A DNA stretch of 64,000 nucleotides from Phycisphaerales bacterium (GTDB lineage: Bacteria; Planctomycetota; Phycisphaerae; Phycisphaerales; UBA5793): assembly GCA_020852515.1 (NCBI GenBank), contig JADZAS010000026.1, positions 1 to 64,000 on the forward strand, in the 5' to 3' direction. Of this stretch, positions 11,824 to 20,078 are shown piece after piece. Each line of letters begins with the position of its first letter. Within the stretch, counting starts at the first letter, position 1. The notes under the pieces are model-generated. The model saw nothing but the letters and a program-made list of their open reading frames with translations, did not search any database and had not been told where the DNA came from. Position numbers and translations under genes: made by a program.

Positions 11824-12354
11824 ATGGCCGGGACGACGAAATCGCGGCTGATTCACCAGGGCCGGCGATTTGCTTTTGAGGAACTGGAAGTGCACCGAAA
11901 CGGCCACCGCGTGGTCCTGGATGCGGTGCGCGGGCCGGGGGCGGTGGTGGTGGTGCCGGTGCTGCCCGACGGGCGGCTGGTGCTCATCCGCAACCACCGG
12001 GCGGTCGTCAATAGAATCCTCTGGGAGTTTTGCGCCGGCGGGATCGAGGCGGGCGAAGAGCCGGCGGCCACGGCGCGGCGCGAACTCATTGAGGAAACGG
12101 GATATGAGGCGAACCAGGTGCGGCATCTCGGCACGTTTTTCACCTCGCCAGGATTCTGCGACGAGCAGATGCACGCCTACCTCGCGACCGGACTTGAGCA
12201 CGTGGGTCAGTGTCTCGAACAGAGTGAGGAAATTGCCGTCGTCGCCGCGCCGCGCGAGCAGGTATGGTCCATGATCGACGGCGGCGAACTCATCGACGCC
12301 AAGAGCATCGCCGCGATGACCTTGTACGAGCGCCATTGCCATGAGCCCGTTTGA
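11824..12354 (+). CDS. NUDIX hydrolase, ADP-ribose pyrophosphatase-like
   Basis: The 176-residue protein has a complete Nudix box at residues 72-94: G, E78, REL at 86-88, EE at 90-91 and G93. The flanking sequences (VVPVLPDGRLVLIRNHR and GTFFTSPGFCDEQMH) match the ADP-sugar pyrophosphatase group. It likely hydrolyses ADP-ribose or a related nucleotide sugar in the cytoplasm. It overlaps the following gene by 14 bases, indicating coupling, although no functional link with the membrane proteins downstream is obvious. Confidence 0.88.
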   Translation: MAGTTKSRLIHQGRRFAFEELEVHRNGHRVVLDAVRGPGAVVVVPVLPDGRLVLIRNHRAVVNRILWEFCAGGIEAGEEPAATARRELIEETGYEANQVRHLGTFFTSPGFCDEQMHAYLATGLEHVGQCLEQSEEIAVVAAPREQVWSMIDGGELIDAKSIAAMTLYERHCHEPV

Positions 12355-13480
12355 CCGTTCAACCCGCAGGTCGCGCCGAAGCGAAAGGCTCGGCTGGTGG
12401 CGCCTGGCCGATGACGTTGCGGCGTGGTCGCTGCCGGTGGGACGCCTCATGGGCGTGCGCCTGCGCGTGCACGCGCTGCTCATTCTGCTCATCGCGGTGG
12501 AGATGCTTCGCTCGACGTGGCTGGCGGACCAGGAGACGGCCAGCGGCCCGGCCATCATGGCCACGGCTCTGCTGGCGCTGGTCATCGTCGTCTTCGCGCA
12601 TGAAATCGGCAAGGCGCTCATGACGCGCTGGATGGGAGGCGCCGCCGAGACGATCGTGCTCTGGCCCCTGGGCGGTCTCTCCGAGCACCAGCAGCCGGCG
12701 GCGTGGCGGCGACGGCTCATCGCCTCGACCGGCGGCGTGCTGCTCAGCCTCGTGCTCGCCTCGGCGCTGTGGCCCATGCTCATGGAGATCACGCCCAACT
12801 GGTACACGACGATCACGCATCCGCTCACGCCGGGCGAGTCGTTCGGCGAGTGGCTGCTGGTGGCCAAGGCCCGGCCGCCCTGGTGGATGCTGCTGGTGTG
12901 GTGGATCGGGTATGCAAACCTGATCGTGCTCGCGGCGAATCTCATTCCGATCTATCCGCTCGACGCGGCTCACGCGCTCGAGAGCGTGCTTATGGCCGCA
13001 CTCGGCCGGCGGCGCGGCCGGAGCGTTTCGATCGCTGTGGCGCTGTGTCTGTCTCTGGTGGTGGTGTCCGCGTCGCTGCTGGTCGATCAGATCGCGGGCG
13101 TGTTCCTCGGCGGGTTCGCGATGCTCTGCTGCATCACCACGGCGAGGCGGCACGCGTTTATCGAAGCGCCGGTCGATACCGTCGATGTCCCCCCGCCGCT
13201 GCAGCAGGCGCCGGACCGCGATGAACTCAATGACGTCGTAGTGCGCTCGCCACGATCGCTGGCCAACCTGGAGACGACGGCCTTCCAGGTGCGGCTGGAG
13301 GCGTCGCCGGACACGCAACGGCGCACGCAGCCGCGAGCCGTGCAAGGCGATCGGCTGGCCACCGAAGAAGAGGTGGTGGACCGGATTCTGGCCAAGATCA
13401 GCGCCGAGGGGATCGCCGGATTGAGCGAGCAGGAGCGCAAGATTCTCGAATCAGTCACGGCCCGTCGCCGCCGGGGATAG
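12341..13480 (+). CDS. Site-2-protease-like membrane protein lacking one zinc histidine
   Basis: The 379-residue protein has the membrane core of the M50 family: a helix carrying FAHEIGKALM, then PLGGLSEH, and later NLIPIYPLDAAHA. In active enzymes the first motif is HExxH; here it is H87-E88-I-G-K91, so the second zinc ligand is a lysine. The PLDGG segment has also become PLDAA around Asp208. It may therefore be a catalytically dead homolog. The last 40 residues (VDRILAKI ... GLSEQERKIL) resemble the end of the rhomboid protein encoded 16 bases downstream. It may bind or regulate rather than cut substrates. Confidence 0.82.
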   Translation: MSPFDRSTRRSRRSERLGWWRLADDVAAWSLPVGRLMGVRLRVHALLILLIAVEMLRSTWLADQETASGPAIMATALLALVIVVFAHEIGKALMTRWMGGAAETIVLWPLGGLSEHQQPAAWRRRLIASTGGVLLSLVLASALWPMLMEITPNWYTTITHPLTPGESFGEWLLVAKARPPWWMLLVWWIGYANLIVLAANLIPIYPLDAAHALESVLMAALGRRRGRSVSIAVALCLSLVVVSASLLVDQIAGVFLGGFAMLCCITTARRHAFIEAPVDTVDVPPPLQQAPDRDELNDVVVRSPRSLANLETTAFQVRLEASPDTQRRTQPRAVQGDRLATEEEVVDRILAKISAEGIAGLSEQERKILESVTARRRRG

Positions 13481-13495
13481 ACTTCCTCTTCACCA

Positions 13496-14539
13496 ATGGG
13501 CATCTACGACCGGCAATACGTGCGTGAAGACCACGGCGGGGGCAGCCCCTTTCCCTCCGGCATGGCGGCGATGTCGGGCTGGTCGTTTAACACCTGGCTC
13601 ATCATCCTCAACGTCGCAGTATTCGTGCTCGATGCGCTGCTCGCGCCGGCGTTTGCCCAGAACCTGCTGCTGGGCGTCAATGCGGCAACGGGCGAGCCGG
13701 TGTTCCAGGCGATGGCGCCGCTGGCCTACTTCGGCCACTTCTCCACGACCACGGCGCTCGTTCACTTCCAGGTCTGGCGCTTTCTGACGTTTCAGTTTCT
13801 GCACGCCAGCGTGCTGCACATTGCCTTCAACATGCTGGCGCTGTACGTGTTCGGGCCGATGGTTGAGCACTACCTCGGCAGTCGGCGCTACCTCGCGTTC
13901 TACCTGCTGTGCGGGGTGGCGGGCGCGGCGTTGTACCTGCTGCTCAACCTGGCGGGGCTGATGATCGGGCGCGGCCTGCCGCTGGTGCTGTTCAATAACC
14001 CCGCCACGCCGCTGGTGGGAGCGTCTGCGGGGATCTTCGGCGTGCTCTTTGCCGCCGCGTACCTGCGACCCAACCAGGTCATCACGCTGTTTCTGTTTTT
14101 CGTCCTGCCCATCAGCATGCGCATCAAGACGCTGGCGATCGGGCTGCTCGTCATTGCCATCTTCGTCCTCTACACCGGCGGGGACAACGCGGGCGGCCAG
14201 GCGGGGCACATCGGCGGCGCCGCGCTTGGCGCGCTGCTCATCCGGCACGCGAACTGGCTCAACTGGGCGCTCTGGCTGCCGCTCGACGGTCTCAAGCGGC
14301 GCGGGCACCACGCCTTCGGCCGCTACTCGGGCGGAGCCGCCGGCGGGCGCGAGTTCTTCACCGGCAAGCCGGCCCGGCGGCCGGGCTTCTTCGAACGCCG
14401 CAAACAGGCGAAAGAACAGTCTGAACTCGACGAAGTCGATCGCATTCTCGCCAAGATCGCCAACCAGGGCATGGGCAGCCTCACCGAGCGAGAAAAGGGC
14501 ATCCTCCAGCGCGACACCGAGCGCAAGCGAGGCGCGTAG
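13496..14539 (+). CDS. Rhomboid family intramembrane serine protease
   Basis: The 347-residue protein has six or more membrane helices. The catalytic Ser177 lies in GASAGIFG and the partner His238 in GHIGGAALG, so the dyad is intact. HASVLHIAFNMLALYVFG is the usual helix with the conserved His and Asn. It should cleave membrane proteins within the bilayer. The C-terminal cytoplasmic tail, EVDRILAKIANQGMGSLTE, matches the DUF6576-type motif found at the end of rhomboids and is shared with the preceding S2P-like protein. The short gap suggests one operon with that gene. Confidence 0.93.
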   Translation: MGIYDRQYVREDHGGGSPFPSGMAAMSGWSFNTWLIILNVAVFVLDALLAPAFAQNLLLGVNAATGEPVFQAMAPLAYFGHFSTTTALVHFQVWRFLTFQFLHASVLHIAFNMLALYVFGPMVEHYLGSRRYLAFYLLCGVAGAALYLLLNLAGLMIGRGLPLVLFNNPATPLVGASAGIFGVLFAAAYLRPNQVITLFLFFVLPISMRIKTLAIGLLVIAIFVLYTGGDNAGGQAGHIGGAALGALLIRHANWLNWALWLPLDGLKRRGHHAFGRYSGGAAGGREFFTGKPARRPGFFERRKQAKEQSELDEVDRILAKIANQGMGSLTEREKGILQRDTERKRGA

Positions 14540-14542
14540 CAG

Positions 14543-15706
14543 GTGGCCGCGCTGCGATTCGAGATCAAAGCCCGCTCACGCGCGTGCGGCGCCCGGATGG
14601 GCGTCGTGCACACGCCGCACGGCTCGTTCGACACGCCCGCGTTCATGCCCGTGGGCACCAAGGCGTCCGTCAAGGGCCTTCTGCCTGAACTCGTCAGGCG
14701 CACCGGCTCGCAGATCATCCTCGGCAACACCTACCACCTCATGCTGCGGCCCGGCAGCGACGTAGTCGCCCACTTCGGCGGCCTGCACCGCTTCATGCGC
14801 TGGGATGGACCGATCCTGACTGACAGCGGCGGCTATCAGGTCTTCTCGATGTCGGACATCAATCGCATCACCGACGACGGCGTGGTGTTCAAGTCGATCA
14901 TCGACGGTTCAATGGTCGATCTCACGCCCGAGCGCTCGATGCAGGTGCAGAACGAACTCGGCGCCGACATCATCATGGCCTTTGATGATTGCCCGCCCAG
15001 CGGACCATGCGAAGACGCAAGCGGCGCTTACGCGGCGCGCCTTGATATCGCGATGGAGCGCACCATTGCCTGGCTGGAGCGGTGCGCCGCGAGCCACGCG
15101 CGCCCGGACGAACAGGCGCTCTTTGGAATTGTCCAGGGCGGCACCGATCTCGACCGCCGCCGGCGGAGCGTCGAGCAGGTGTGCGGCATCGACCTGCCCG
15201 GTTATGCGATCGGCGGCGTGGCGGTGGGCGAGGGCACGGAGGAGATCCGGCGCATCGTGGAGCACACGGCCCCCCTGCTGCCCGCTGACCGGCCTCGGTA
15301 TCTCATGGGAGTCGGCTACGAGTGGGACCTCATCATGGCGGTGCGGGCGGGGGTTGACATGTTCGACTGCGTCCTGCCGACCCGCAACGGGCGCAACGCC
15401 AACGCCTTCACGCGGCGCGGGCCGGTTCGGCTGCGCAATGCGGTGCACGCGCGGGACGAATCGCCCATCGAGGCGGGCTGCGACTGCCCGGCCTGCGGCG
15501 AGAGTTTCAGCCGGGGGTACCTGCGGCATCTTTTCCTCGCCGAGGAGATGCTTGGTCCCATCCTCGTCAGCCTGCATAACATAGCCCACTTTCAACGGCT
15601 GATGGCAGACGCGCGCCAGGCCGTGGTGGATGATGACTGGGCCCGGCTGACGGCCGACTGGCCGGTGCTGGGCGGCGCGGACGTCGCCTTGGCCGAGGAC
15701 GCCTGA
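14543..15706 (+). CDS. tgt: Queuine tRNA-ribosyltransferase
   Basis: Tgt exchanges guanine 34 for preQ1 in tRNAs with GUN anticodons. The 387-residue protein starts at a GTG 3 bases after the rhomboid stop. It shows LTDSGGYQVFS (Asp94, base recognition), FGIVQGG, AIGGVAVGE, DMFDCVLPTRNGRNANAF (the nucleophile aspartate near residue 274), and the zinc site CDCPACGE followed by the HNIAH region. It leads the tgt-yajC-secDF cluster that is common in bacteria. Confidence 0.97.
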   Translation: MAALRFEIKARSRACGARMGVVHTPHGSFDTPAFMPVGTKASVKGLLPELVRRTGSQIILGNTYHLMLRPGSDVVAHFGGLHRFMRWDGPILTDSGGYQVFSMSDINRITDDGVVFKSIIDGSMVDLTPERSMQVQNELGADIIMAFDDCPPSGPCEDASGAYAARLDIAMERTIAWLERCAASHARPDEQALFGIVQGGTDLDRRRRSVEQVCGIDLPGYAIGGVAVGEGTEEIRRIVEHTAPLLPADRPRYLMGVGYEWDLIMAVRAGVDMFDCVLPTRNGRNANAFTRRGPVRLRNAVHARDESPIEAGCDCPACGESFSRGYLRHLFLAEEMLGPILVSLHNIAHFQRLMADARQAVVDDDWARLTADWPVLGGADVALAEDA

Positions 15707-15758
15707 CGGACCGCAAACTGCTCTCTCGAAGGGCGCTCGACGCCGATTGGACCGCACC

Positions 15759-16199
15759 ATGGAGTTCCCTTTCACGATTTTGACGCTCGCGCAGGCGGAT
15801 AACCCGTCGGACACCGGTGCCTCGCCGACCCCCGCGGGGGGCGAAGCGAGCAGCGGCTCGCCCGGCGCGGGAGGCGGCGGGAGTGCCCCGGCGGCCAACC
15901 CGTGGGGCAGCGCCTTTATCTTCATCCCCCTGCTGCTGATCATGGTCGTCATGATCTGGACGAGCAGTTCCGCCCAGCGCAAGGAAAAGAAGAAGCGCGA
16001 GCAGATGCTCGGGGCGCTCAAGCGACACGATCGGGTGCAGACGATCGGCGGGCTGATCGGCTCGGTGGTGGAAATCAAGGACAGCGAAGTGGTGCTAAAG
16101 GTGGACGAGGCGAACAACGTGAAGATGCGCTTCGCCAAGTCCGCCGTGCAGCAGGTGCTCTCCGAGGGCGAGGGGGAAGCAGCGTCCGGGGGCAGGTAG
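15759..16199 (+). CDS. yajC: Preprotein translocase accessory subunit YajC
   Basis: YajC associates with SecDF at the Sec translocon. The 146-residue protein has a Gly/Ser-rich N-terminal part, one membrane helix (FIFIPLLLIMVVMIW), and the family signature: SSAQRKEKKKREQMLGALK, then HDRVQTIGGLIGSVVEI and VVLKVDEANNVKMRFAKSAV. Its N-terminal extension is longer than in E. coli. It lies between tgt and secDF, the conserved order. The ATG at 15759 was preferred over an upstream TTG at 15747. Confidence 0.94.
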   Translation: MEFPFTILTLAQADNPSDTGASPTPAGGEASSGSPGAGGGGSAPAANPWGSAFIFIPLLLIMVVMIWTSSSAQRKEKKKREQMLGALKRHDRVQTIGGLIGSVVEIKDSEVVLKVDEANNVKMRFAKSAVQQVLSEGEGEAASGGR

Positions 16200-16319
16200 C
16201 GGCGGCGCGGCGGCGGGCGGCGATCAGCCGCGCGCGGCCCGGCAATTCAGCGGCTCGGATGAGCCGGTCTCTTCAGGTCGACCGCGAGGGGTCGGCCGTT
16301 TGTTTCGGAACAAGGTCAC

Positions 16320-19300
16320 ATGCGAACTCACCTGTGGAAGATCATTCTCGTCGTCGTCGCCGTCCTGCTTTGCGCCAATGCGATATTTCCGCCGCGCGAA
16401 AAGCTGAAACTCGGCAAGGACCTCGCGGGCGGCGTGACCATTCTCTATGGCGTCAAGCCCGACGCCAACACCGGCCGCCAGCCGACTTCGACGCAGGTGG
16501 CGCAGATGATCTCGGTCATCCGCGACCGCATCGACCCGAGGGGCATCTACGACATCAGCATCGAGGCGCTGGGGACGAACCAGATCGAGATTTCGATGCC
16601 GCTGCCTTCGCCGGAAGTGAAGGAAATGAGGCGGGAACTCGACGCGCATCTTGATGCGCTCGCCGCGTCGTCGATCCAGCCTTACGAACTCGATGAAGTG
16701 TTCCGGCTGAGCGGCGCCGAGCGTGAGGCGCGCATCGCGGCCCTTTCGGCGGAGGTGCCCGAACGAGAACCGCTCTTTGCCGACGCCATCGCCGCCTACG
16801 ACCGCTACCAGCGCCTCGCGGCGGATTATGCTCCGATCGAGGAGCAGGCGCGTCAGGCCAGGAAGGCGGCGCGGGACCAAGCCGATGCGGCCCAGGCGGT
16901 CGTGACCGAAAAACTGAATGCCGCCGAACAGGCCGGCGTGGACGCCATCGAACTGCCGCGGATGGCCGGCATTCCCGATGAGGCGGCTCAGCAGGCGCGC
17001 ATCGACGAACTCGTGGCCGAAACCGAGGACCCGCAGGCGGCCCGCGATGCGATCGCCGCGTACCTCGAAGCGCGGAACCACGTTGCCGATCTGCAGGCGG
17101 AGGCGGACCGGGTTCGCGCGCTGTGGCAGATCCGCCTCGAGCCGCTCGAACGCGCCGCCGTCCAGGCGGATGAGGTGTTCGAGCAGGCGCGCCAGGCGAT
17201 CATGAATACGAGCCTCAACGTGGAAGACGTCCGGCGCATCCTGGCGCTGGACAAGACGCCCAAGATGGTCCGCGACGCCGCGACGGGCAAGAACATCGAG
17301 GGGCCGAGCGTGCGCGAAGAGGCGCTCACGCGGCTCAAGGCTCAGTTTCCGGTGCTCGAGAGCGAGGTCAGCCAGGCGGTCACGCTCTACGACGCATACC
17401 GCAGTCGAGCCCGTGGCTACGACGACCCGAAAGACCTGATCGCGCTGCTGCGCGGCGCGGGTGTGCTCGCGTTTCGCATCACCGCCGAGAACTCTGACCC
17501 GCTCAACTTCCAGCAACTGCGCCAGGAACTGCGCGAGCGTGGCCCCACGGGTACGCGGTCTTCCGAGTCGGTCCGCTGGTTTGCCGTCGATCGGCCCGAG
17601 GGCTGGGCGGATGAGGATCGCGAGCAGCAGTTCCTTGCCAGCGATCCAGCAGGCTTCTTTGCGGCGCGCGGCTATGTGGCCGAAGAGTTCGACGGCGTCA
17701 TTTACCTGCTCGCCTACCAGACGCCCGACCGAGCCCTGACCGAGACCAGCGGCCCGTGGGAACTGACGGGCGCCTCGCGCACCATCGACCGCACCGGCCG
17801 GCCCGCGGTGTCGTTCCGACTGGATGCGGCCGGCGCGCGGCTGTTTTCCGACCTGACGGACAACAACATTGATCGGAAGATGGCGATCGTGCTCGACGAT
17901 CGAATCTTCTCGGCGCCGCAGATCCGCGGCCGCATCTCCGATCAGGGCGAGATCACCGGCAACTTCTCCCAGTCGGAGATCGACTACCTGCTCAAGGTGC
18001 TCAACGCGGGCTCGCTGCAAGCCCAGCTTACGGACTGGCCCATCGCCCAGAACACGGTGGGACCCAAACTCGGCCTCGACAACCTGAAGCGCGGTCTGGA
18101 AGCGGGCGTGCTCTCGTTCGTCGTCGTGTCGATCTTCATGATCATCTACTACTTCCGCTGCGGCGCCATCGCCGACGTAGCCCTGGCTCTCAACGGCCTG
18201 TTCATCCTCGGGGCCATGGCGCTCAACCAGGCGGCGTTCACCATGCCCGGCATCGCCGGCATCGTGCTCACCTTCGGCATGGCCGTGGACGCCAACGTGC
18301 TTATCTACGAGCGCATACGCGAAGAGCTGGAAGGCGGCGCCGACACGAAGACCGCCATCCGGCTCGGCTACGAAAAGGCCATGAGCAGCATCGTGGACGG
18401 CAACGTCACGAACCTGATCGTCTGCTTTGTGCTGGGATTCACCGCGTCGGCCGACGTCAAGGGCTTCGCCATCACGCTGGGTATCGGCGTGGTCTCGACG
18501 CTGTTCACCGCGCTGTTCATCACGCGGACGATCTTCGACATCGGACTGGCCACGGGCACCATCAAGCGCCTGAGCATGCTGCCAATGGCGTGGAGCGCGC
18601 TGGGCCGGGCGCTGCACCCGAACATCAACTGGGTGGCCCTGCGCAAGTTCTGCTACATGTTCAGCGCCACCGCGGTGATCGCGGGTCTGGCGCTGACGTA
18701 CGCCACCTGGCGCGAAATGCTCGATACCGAATTCCTCGGCGGCACGACCGTCACTTTCTCGTTCAAGAACAACGAGCAGGGCGAGCCGGTCAAGCTGCCT
18801 CGCGCCGAGGTCGAAGGCCGCATCAAGGCGTACGCGCAGCAGGCGCTCGCCGCCGGCGACATCACGCCCGAGCAGGAGCGGGCCTTCCTTAGCGTCAACG
18901 TCTTCAACCTGCACGCCGATGAAGTCGAGGGCGAAGGCTTCAGCGGCTCGGCGTTCACAATCAAGACCACCATCGACGATCAGAGTACGGTCGAAGCGGC
19001 GATCATCGAGTCATTCGGCGACATTCTCGACATCCCGCGCATCGTCGAGTTCCAGGGATCCGATCTCGCCGCCGACGAAAACCCGCCGGTCTACCCGATC
19101 CTCAAAGACTCACTGGGCGACAACATCAACCTGCCCACCGTGCGCACGAGCGTGAGCCAGTACCTCGGCGGGGTGGCCGTGGTGCTCGAGAACATCCAGC
19201 CTCCGCTGTCGCTCGGGGAGATCCAGAAGCGCATCGACACGAAGCGGCGGAGCCCGGAGTTTGAAGCGCTGCTCGGCCGGCAATCGACCGTCGTGGGCCT

Positions 19301-20078
19301 CACGCGCGACGCCGAGGCATCCGCGGGCGGCGAGAGCCGCTACAGCGACGCCGTGGTGGTGGTGGACAGCACGGTCTCGGGCGTGAGTTGGTTCGAGAAT
19401 CCCGATCTGTGGAAATCACTGGTGGCGGACCGGGAGTGGAATCTCATTTCCAGCGCGCTCACCGAGCCGCCGACGCTCGATCAGATCACGACGATCTCGC
19501 CGACCGTCGCCGAACAGTTCCGCGCCACGGCGGTCGTGTCGATCGGGCTGAGCCTGTTGGGCATCCTGGCCTACATCTGGGTGCGGTTCGGCTCGTTCCG
19601 TTACTCCGCGGCGGCGGTGGTGGCGCTGGTGCACGACGTGTGCGTCACGCTGGGAATGCTCTCGCTCACGCACTACCTGTACAACACGGCGTTCGGGCGG
19701 GTGCTGCTCATCGAGCCATTCAAGATCGACATGGGTGTCATTGCGGCGCTGCTGACGATCATCGGCTACTCGCTCAACGACACGATCATCGTCATGGACC
19801 GCATCCGCGAGAACCGCGGCAAACTGACCCTGGCCACGCCCGAAGTCGTGAACAAGTCGATCAACTCGACGATGAGCCGCACGCTGCTCACCTCGGGCAC
19901 GACGCTGCTGGCGCTGGTGATCATGTACTTCGAGGGCGGCACGGGCATCCGGCCGTTCGCCTTCGCCATGCTCTGCGGCATCATGATCGGCACGTACAGT
20001 TCGGTCGGCGTGGCATCGCCCATGGTGCTCACGCACCGCAAGCCCAAGGCCCGGGCGCAGGGGCTTAGTGCAGTATGA
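16320..20078 (+). CDS. secDF: SecD-SecF fusion, protein-export membrane protein
   Basis: The 1252-residue fusion uses the proton motive force to complete export through SecYEG. The SecD half starts with a membrane helix and LGKDLAGGVTILYGV. It has the P1-type region (ASRTIDRTGRPAVSF, LNAGSLQAQL), five more helices after residue 600, and the GMAVDANVLIYERIREE motif near 653. The SecF half starts near 766, with LDTEFLGGTTVTF and YSLNDTIIVMDRIRENR near 1149. Between residues about 100 and 380 is an Ala/Glu/Arg-rich helical insertion that most SecD proteins lack. AAGGTCAC precedes the ATG. Confidence 0.96.
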   Translation: MRTHLWKIILVVVAVLLCANAIFPPREKLKLGKDLAGGVTILYGVKPDANTGRQPTSTQVAQMISVIRDRIDPRGIYDISIEALGTNQIEISMPLPSPEVKEMRRELDAHLDALAASSIQPYELDEVFRLSGAEREARIAALSAEVPEREPLFADAIAAYDRYQRLAADYAPIEEQARQARKAARDQADAAQAVVTEKLNAAEQAGVDAIELPRMAGIPDEAAQQARIDELVAETEDPQAARDAIAAYLEARNHVADLQAEADRVRALWQIRLEPLERAAVQADEVFEQARQAIMNTSLNVEDVRRILALDKTPKMVRDAATGKNIEGPSVREEALTRLKAQFPVLESEVSQAVTLYDAYRSRARGYDDPKDLIALLRGAGVLAFRITAENSDPLNFQQLRQELRERGPTGTRSSESVRWFAVDRPEGWADEDREQQFLASDPAGFFAARGYVAEEFDGVIYLLAYQTPDRALTETSGPWELTGASRTIDRTGRPAVSFRLDAAGARLFSDLTDNNIDRKMAIVLDDRIFSAPQIRGRISDQGEITGNFSQSEIDYLLKVLNAGSLQAQLTDWPIAQNTVGPKLGLDNLKRGLEAGVLSFVVVSIFMIIYYFRCGAIADVALALNGLFILGAMALNQAAFTMPGIAGIVLTFGMAVDANVLIYERIREELEGGADTKTAIRLGYEKAMSSIVDGNVTNLIVCFVLGFTASADVKGFAITLGIGVVSTLFTALFITRTIFDIGLATGTIKRLSMLPMAWSALGRALHPNINWVALRKFCYMFSATAVIAGLALTYATWREMLDTEFLGGTTVTFSFKNNEQGEPVKLPRAEVEGRIKAYAQQALAAGDITPEQERAFLSVNVFNLHADEVEGEGFSGSAFTIKTTIDDQSTVEAAIIESFGDILDIPRIVEFQGSDLAADENPPVYPILKDSLGDNINLPTVRTSVSQYLGGVAVVLENIQPPLSLGEIQKRIDTKRRSPEFEALLGRQSTVVGLTRDAEASAGGESRYSDAVVVVDSTVSGVSWFENPDLWKSLVADREWNLISSALTEPPTLDQITTISPTVAEQFRATAVVSIGLSLLGILAYIWVRFGSFRYSAAAVVALVHDVCVTLGMLSLTHYLYNTAFGRVLLIEPFKIDMGVIAALLTIIGYSLNDTIIVMDRIRENRGKLTLATPEVVNKSINSTMSRTLLTSGTTLLALVIMYFEGGTGIRPFAFAMLCGIMIGTYSSVGVASPMVLTHRKPKARAQGLSAV

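Follow-up and report, generated by a model that had tools for sequence, protein, structure and literature searches.

A DUF6576 tail shared by rhomboid and S2P-like proteins marks a Nudix-linked gene position in which unrelated intramembrane protease cores are exchanged

The window analyzed here is a 64,000-nucleotide stretch of DNA from a Phycisphaerales bacterium in which two intramembrane protease-like genes of unrelated fold lie side by side on the forward strand, downstream of a Nudix hydrolase gene. The Nudix gene (positions 11824 to 12354, forward strand; Pfam NUDIX, 4.4e-18) is NudE/ADP-ribose pyrophosphatase-like, and its top NCBIfam match is NudE at 6.6e-24, which is under the NudE cut-off. 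Its 3′ end overlaps by 14 nt the start of a gene for an S2P/M50-like protein of 379 amino acids (12341 to 13480; Pfam M50, 1.8e-10). A gene for a rhomboid protease of 347 amino acids (13496 to 14539; Pfam Rhomboid, 1.7e-26) begins 15 nt past the S2P stop codon on the same strand, and the tgt-yajC-secDF operon (14543 to 20078, forward strand) follows, with tgt beginning 3 nt past the rhomboid stop. Judged from gene spacing, the Nudix, S2P, rhomboid, and tgt genes look like one operon; the tgt-yajC-secDF genes adjoin the protease position only in several families of the order. SecD and SecF appear to be encoded by a single fused open reading frame of 1252 amino acids (16320 to 20078).

A sequence-only reading of this DNA had proposed that the S2P-like protein carries HEIGK for HExxH and PLDAA for PLDGG, that the rhomboid keeps its Ser-His dyad, and that both proteins end in a DUF6576-like tail, and each of these observations was borne out. 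In the S2P open reading frame, HEIGK (12599 to 12613) places a Lys at the second zinc ligand, and PLDAA (12956 to 12970) retains the metal-ligand Asp. The rhomboid dyad is intact, with Ser177 in GASAG (codon at 14024-14026) and His238 in GHIGG (codon at 14207-14209). The tails of the S2P (13361 to 13453) and the rhomboid (14423 to 14512) score 28.0 and 31.0 bits, respectively, against the DUF6576 profile (PF20216) in Pfam, and 31.7 and 34.9 bits in the genome-wide search; all four values lie above the curated cut-off of 27.3 bits, so the resemblance of the tails goes beyond chance. The tail is a short two-helix hairpin with basic residues at its end. Its helices span residues 334-356 and 363-378 in the AF2 model of the S2P (block pLDDT mostly 92-97) and residues 683-709 and 716-731, for the rhomboid, in an AF2 model of an S2P-rhomboid fusion (block pLDDT mostly 92-96).

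A profile search of the window's genome returned no third DUF6576 match besides the S2P and the rhomboid, whereas the same profile matched in 144/150 genomes of the class. In the class loci that were fetched, the tails are found on rhomboids and M50/S2P proteins, and in the phylum sample the tail carrier is a rhomboid or an M50/S2P protein wherever it could be classified. Five tail-bearing open reading frames of the class matched neither a rhomboid nor an M50 core model; two are fragments at locus ends, and three (L077, L226, and L227) look like the degenerate rhomboids seen in f21, a family of the sample. A lipoprotein of G291 (L331) was rejected as a tail carrier, its match to the tail model (8.5e-4) falling below the family cut-off. 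We found no paper on DUF6576 in the open-licence literature, although a description may exist elsewhere, and none there on rhomboid and S2P pairing in planctomycetes.

Across the class, the tail is a property of a gene position. The same Nudix gene lies just upstream of the protease in 53/61 tail-bearing S2P loci and 57/84 tail-bearing rhomboid loci, counts drawn from genomes of which many are draft bins and which sample the families unevenly. Either protease can fill the slot after the Nudix gene, and where both are present, their order varies. Mapped onto a tree of 89 Nudix proteins, the slot content must have changed no fewer than 18 times; support is weak for many of the inner branches, but 3 to 5 changes per label are required even when only the starred branches are counted. 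Among all single-protease loci, the identity between S2P and rhomboid tails rises with the identity of the Nudix proteins (r = 0.24; 0/1000 permutations). The Nudix link was not found phylum-wide and is mostly absent outside the class. Same-fold tandems also occur, with two rhomboids or two S2Ps that are both tailed (L046 in G065 and L201 in G158).

A second shared element lies at the other end of the proteins. Most tail-bearing rhomboids start with a box of consensus MG[W/I/L]xDRxY (short form, MGWxDRxY), which in the window reads MGIYDRQY (13496 to 13519). In the class, this N-box is present in 92/102 tail-bearing rhomboids and 39/74 tail-bearing S2Ps, compared with 2/27 rhomboids and 0/36 M50 proteins that lack the tail and almost none of the shuffled prefixes; the genomes are not independent in these counts, and whole families behave alike. 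Among tail-bearing S2Ps, the box occurs in 37/47 without an adjacent rhomboid versus 2/27 with one. The S2Ps of the window's genus belong to the latter kind and have no clear N-box, the start of the window's protein (MSPFDRST) being a remnant at most.

Exchange of the core in place could be followed at the DNA level in two genera, g23 and g265, in which the flanking DNA and the tail are 85-91% identical. In the g23 pair G043/G007, both single-contig genomes, the core is of the M50 type (HEFGH) in one and of the rhomboid type (GASG) in the other. Their DNA is 91% identical across the Nudix gene and up to nt 20 of the protease gene (ATGAGCTGGGAGCATCGGGA, encoding MSWEHR), diverges completely thereafter, and returns to 85% identity at the tail and over the gene that follows; the two 32-residue tail motifs do not differ. 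The g265 pair G340/G342 likewise has an M50 core in one genome and a rhomboid core in the other at the same position, and its tails differ by a single residue. Its 5′ junction precedes the start codon, and thus the N-box was exchanged along with the core. Recombination at the tails or boxes that a tandem rhomboid-S2P pair carries twice, resolving the tandem, would be a simple route to such exchange.

The sequence-only reading had suggested that the two proteins bind a common partner or each other. A common partner for the tails is well supported by the sequence comparisons, in which the tail and N-box stay while the core changes. Mutual binding, with the pseudo-S2P as a dedicated adaptor of the adjacent rhomboid, is unlikely. 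In its favor, the pseudo-S2P is under strong constraint, and the two genes form a tight, conserved pair throughout the genus and, in either gene order, in several families. However, 109/146 tail-bearing genomes of the class have just one tail protein, which argues against mutual binding as the general purpose of the tail; the S2P is intact in most pairs; and paired tails are no more alike within a genome (0.47) than across families (0.46). The last comparison also led us to reject homogenization of paired tails within a genome. In an AF2 model of the two proteins as a fusion, built with read-through of the TAG, the cores and tails were confident, but the pTM was 0.55 and no confident mutual arrangement emerged; this is a weak test, since MAFFT misaligned the stand-alone S2P rows in their second half and the alignment was poor for half of the S2P.

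We also regard as improbable the explanation that the tail and N-box are generic signals for stability, topology, or turnover with no specific partner. A short, simple hairpin ending in basic residues would suit such a role, but a generic signal is difficult to reconcile with a tail limited to two protease families wherever carriers were classified in the phylum, present on two proteins of the genome, and remaining in the slot through core exchange.

The S2P of the window resembles the M50/S2P family members M. jannaschii S2P and SpoIVFB of B. subtilis in fold, Pfam profile, the HE of the motif, and the metal-ligand Asp. It differs from them in that the second zinc His is K or R throughout the window's genus and that a DUF6576 tail stands where SpoIVFB has a CBS domain. 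A Foldseek search with the structural model found M. jannaschii S2P (3b4r; E, 2.3e-8; TM by target, 0.77-0.81); the model also resembles SpoIVFB, and a search with the sequence only recovers both proteins too. The usual S2P motifs in the class are HE[FYLI]GH and DGG. Of the five species in the genus, four have HEIGK and one has HEIGR; all have PLDAA or PLDGA further on, with the Asp retained and GG changed to AA or GA. Every congener keeps the first His of the site, its Glu, and its Asp, and the rhomboid adjoins the S2P in all five. As K or R is found in five of five congeners, the loss is neither a sequencing error nor a one-genome event. The sister genus (G001) has an intact HELGH S2P at the equivalent def-fmt-nudix locus and encodes its tail-bearing rhomboid elsewhere in the genome. 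Intact orthologs at the locus, which the earlier reading had named as a sign of error or recent decay, are thus absent from the genus and present just outside it, indicating that the loss is fixed in the window's genus. A record titled Vicinamibacteraceae (Acidobacteriota), L004 (WYBR01000109.1), has this genus's planctomycete locus, and its translated S2P and rhomboid are identical to those of G003; it is probably a misnamed bin.

The open frame, fold, and tail of the S2P are preserved across the five species. A comparison of the window's species with its nearest relative gives dN/dS values of 0.071 (S2P) and 0.086 (rhomboid); the dead S2P is thus held as tightly as its neighbor and shows no drift. 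Active M50/S2P proteases have HExxH with two zinc-ligand His, a feature that the window S2P lacks; a catalytic residue is lost, the loss is conserved in orthologs, and the gene is under purifying selection. By these sequence measures, the protein behaves as a retained pseudoprotease. That the HEIGK/HEIGR protein instead remains catalytically active through a changed metal site is very unlikely: conservation of the first His, Glu, and Asp in all congeners would favor this, but a zinc ligand is replaced by a basic residue, and a basic residue in that position is not known to support M50 catalysis. That the S2P is a decaying pseudogene being lost, with everything else coincidental, is scarcely credible, since the missing catalytic ligand and the intact sister genus are outweighed by the preserved frame and tail, a dN/dS as low as that of the active neighbor, and a confident fold model.

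Catalytic residues, as called from alignment, have been lost repeatedly in rhomboid and S2P families alike, although an intact tail protease is retained in 145/146 tail-bearing genomes of the class. The second zinc ligand is also Arg in G107 (REAAR), G091 (HEFGR), and G078 (HELGR), and the S2P of G113 has HDFGH; our guess is that a basic side chain replaces the charge of the zinc in degenerate S2Ps. Degenerate and intact tail proteins occur together in the window's genus (pseudo-S2P and rhomboid), in G091 and G113 (pseudo-S2P and S2P), and in f21 (pseudo-rhomboid and an intact tail-bearing S2P); G107 is consistent with this pattern on direct inspection of its locus, and f47, f38, and f95 follow it outside the class. 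The f21 loci (L073, L077, L080, L226, and L227) present the mirror image of the window, with tailed rhomboid-like proteins that lack Ser-His, some of them with the N-box; for the three copies without a model match, degenerate status was assigned by resemblance. The generalization that each degenerate tail protein has an active tailed partner was rejected. In the class, it fails only in G078, where the sole tail protein is degenerate, but in f45, f85, and f98, which belong to other classes, all tail proteins found are without catalytic residues. Thus, the shell formed by the shared ends can outlast proteolysis and may serve some other function. Family f45 has rhomboid-like tail proteins of two kinds, apparently none with a catalytic dyad (L165, L167, L172, L178, L179, L323, L325, L326, L329, and L330).

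On balance, we consider it fairly probable that the Nudix-linked slot encodes an intramembrane protease with an exchangeable rhomboid or M50/S2P core inside a conserved docking shell. The shell would consist of the N-terminal box and the C-terminal DUF6576 hairpin, both of which we infer to be cytoplasmic, and would dock the protease at a single shared partner or site, where the core would need only to cut transmembrane substrates. The unrelated serine rhomboid and zinc S2P would then, with similar probability, be swappable cores of one shell, exchanged many times, with the spare core repeatedly becoming a pseudoprotease, and the dock rather than the chemistry would define the protease system. 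When two shell proteins occur together, a single active core would usually suffice; the other could lose its site while its shell is still selected. In the window's genus, the rhomboid would be the working protease, and the pseudo-S2P may occupy the same dock as a substrate adaptor or presenter, co-receptor, or regulator. Position and shell suggest that the S2P and rhomboid versions do the same job and that the place where the enzymes act is set by the shared ends and not by the cutting core. Putative partners are the Nudix enzyme, Sec auxiliary proteins, and FtsH, nominated by their neighborhood or by a parallel with the part that rhomboids play in quality control (PMC7232013).

Bacterial rhomboids such as GlpG act in the quality control of orphan membrane proteins (PMC7232013). 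The window rhomboid is like them in its profile and Ser-His dyad but differs in its N-box, its DUF6576 tail, and its exchangeability with an S2P in the same locus. Eukaryotic iRhoms and derlins are rhomboid pseudoproteases (PMC3149277, PMC12615303) and are likewise dead intramembrane proteases kept under selection alongside active relatives, whereas in the window the dead member differs in fold from its active neighbor. EGY3, a chloroplast S2P homologue of plants described as a pseudoprotease (PMC9355673), is of the S2P type like the window protein, but we found no report of its pairing with a rhomboid. The window's pseudo-S2P may represent a bacterial counterpart of iRhom and EGY3. Rhombosortase and myxosortase perform analogous sorting jobs with different intramembrane protease families (PMC3237569, PMC11980579), but their loci and tags are unrelated, and these two papers report no shared shell or in-place core exchange.

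How bacterial rhomboids and S2Ps find their substrates and sites is an open question, on which this locus bears as a natural domain-swap experiment: the ends, the locus, and the neighboring gene are constant, and two unrelated cores alternate between them. The docking account offers a possible role for DUF6576 and predicts that specificity resides in the shell, for which G043/G007 and G340/G342 provide matched pairs. As a separate observation on the first pair, the gene 3′ of the slot (L151:4853-5217 in G043 and L157:4831-5194 in G007) contains an in-frame TGA in both genomes, in the context TAC-TGC-AAT/CAG-CAG-TGA (YCxQ-U), resembling an Rdx/SelW-type selenoprotein.
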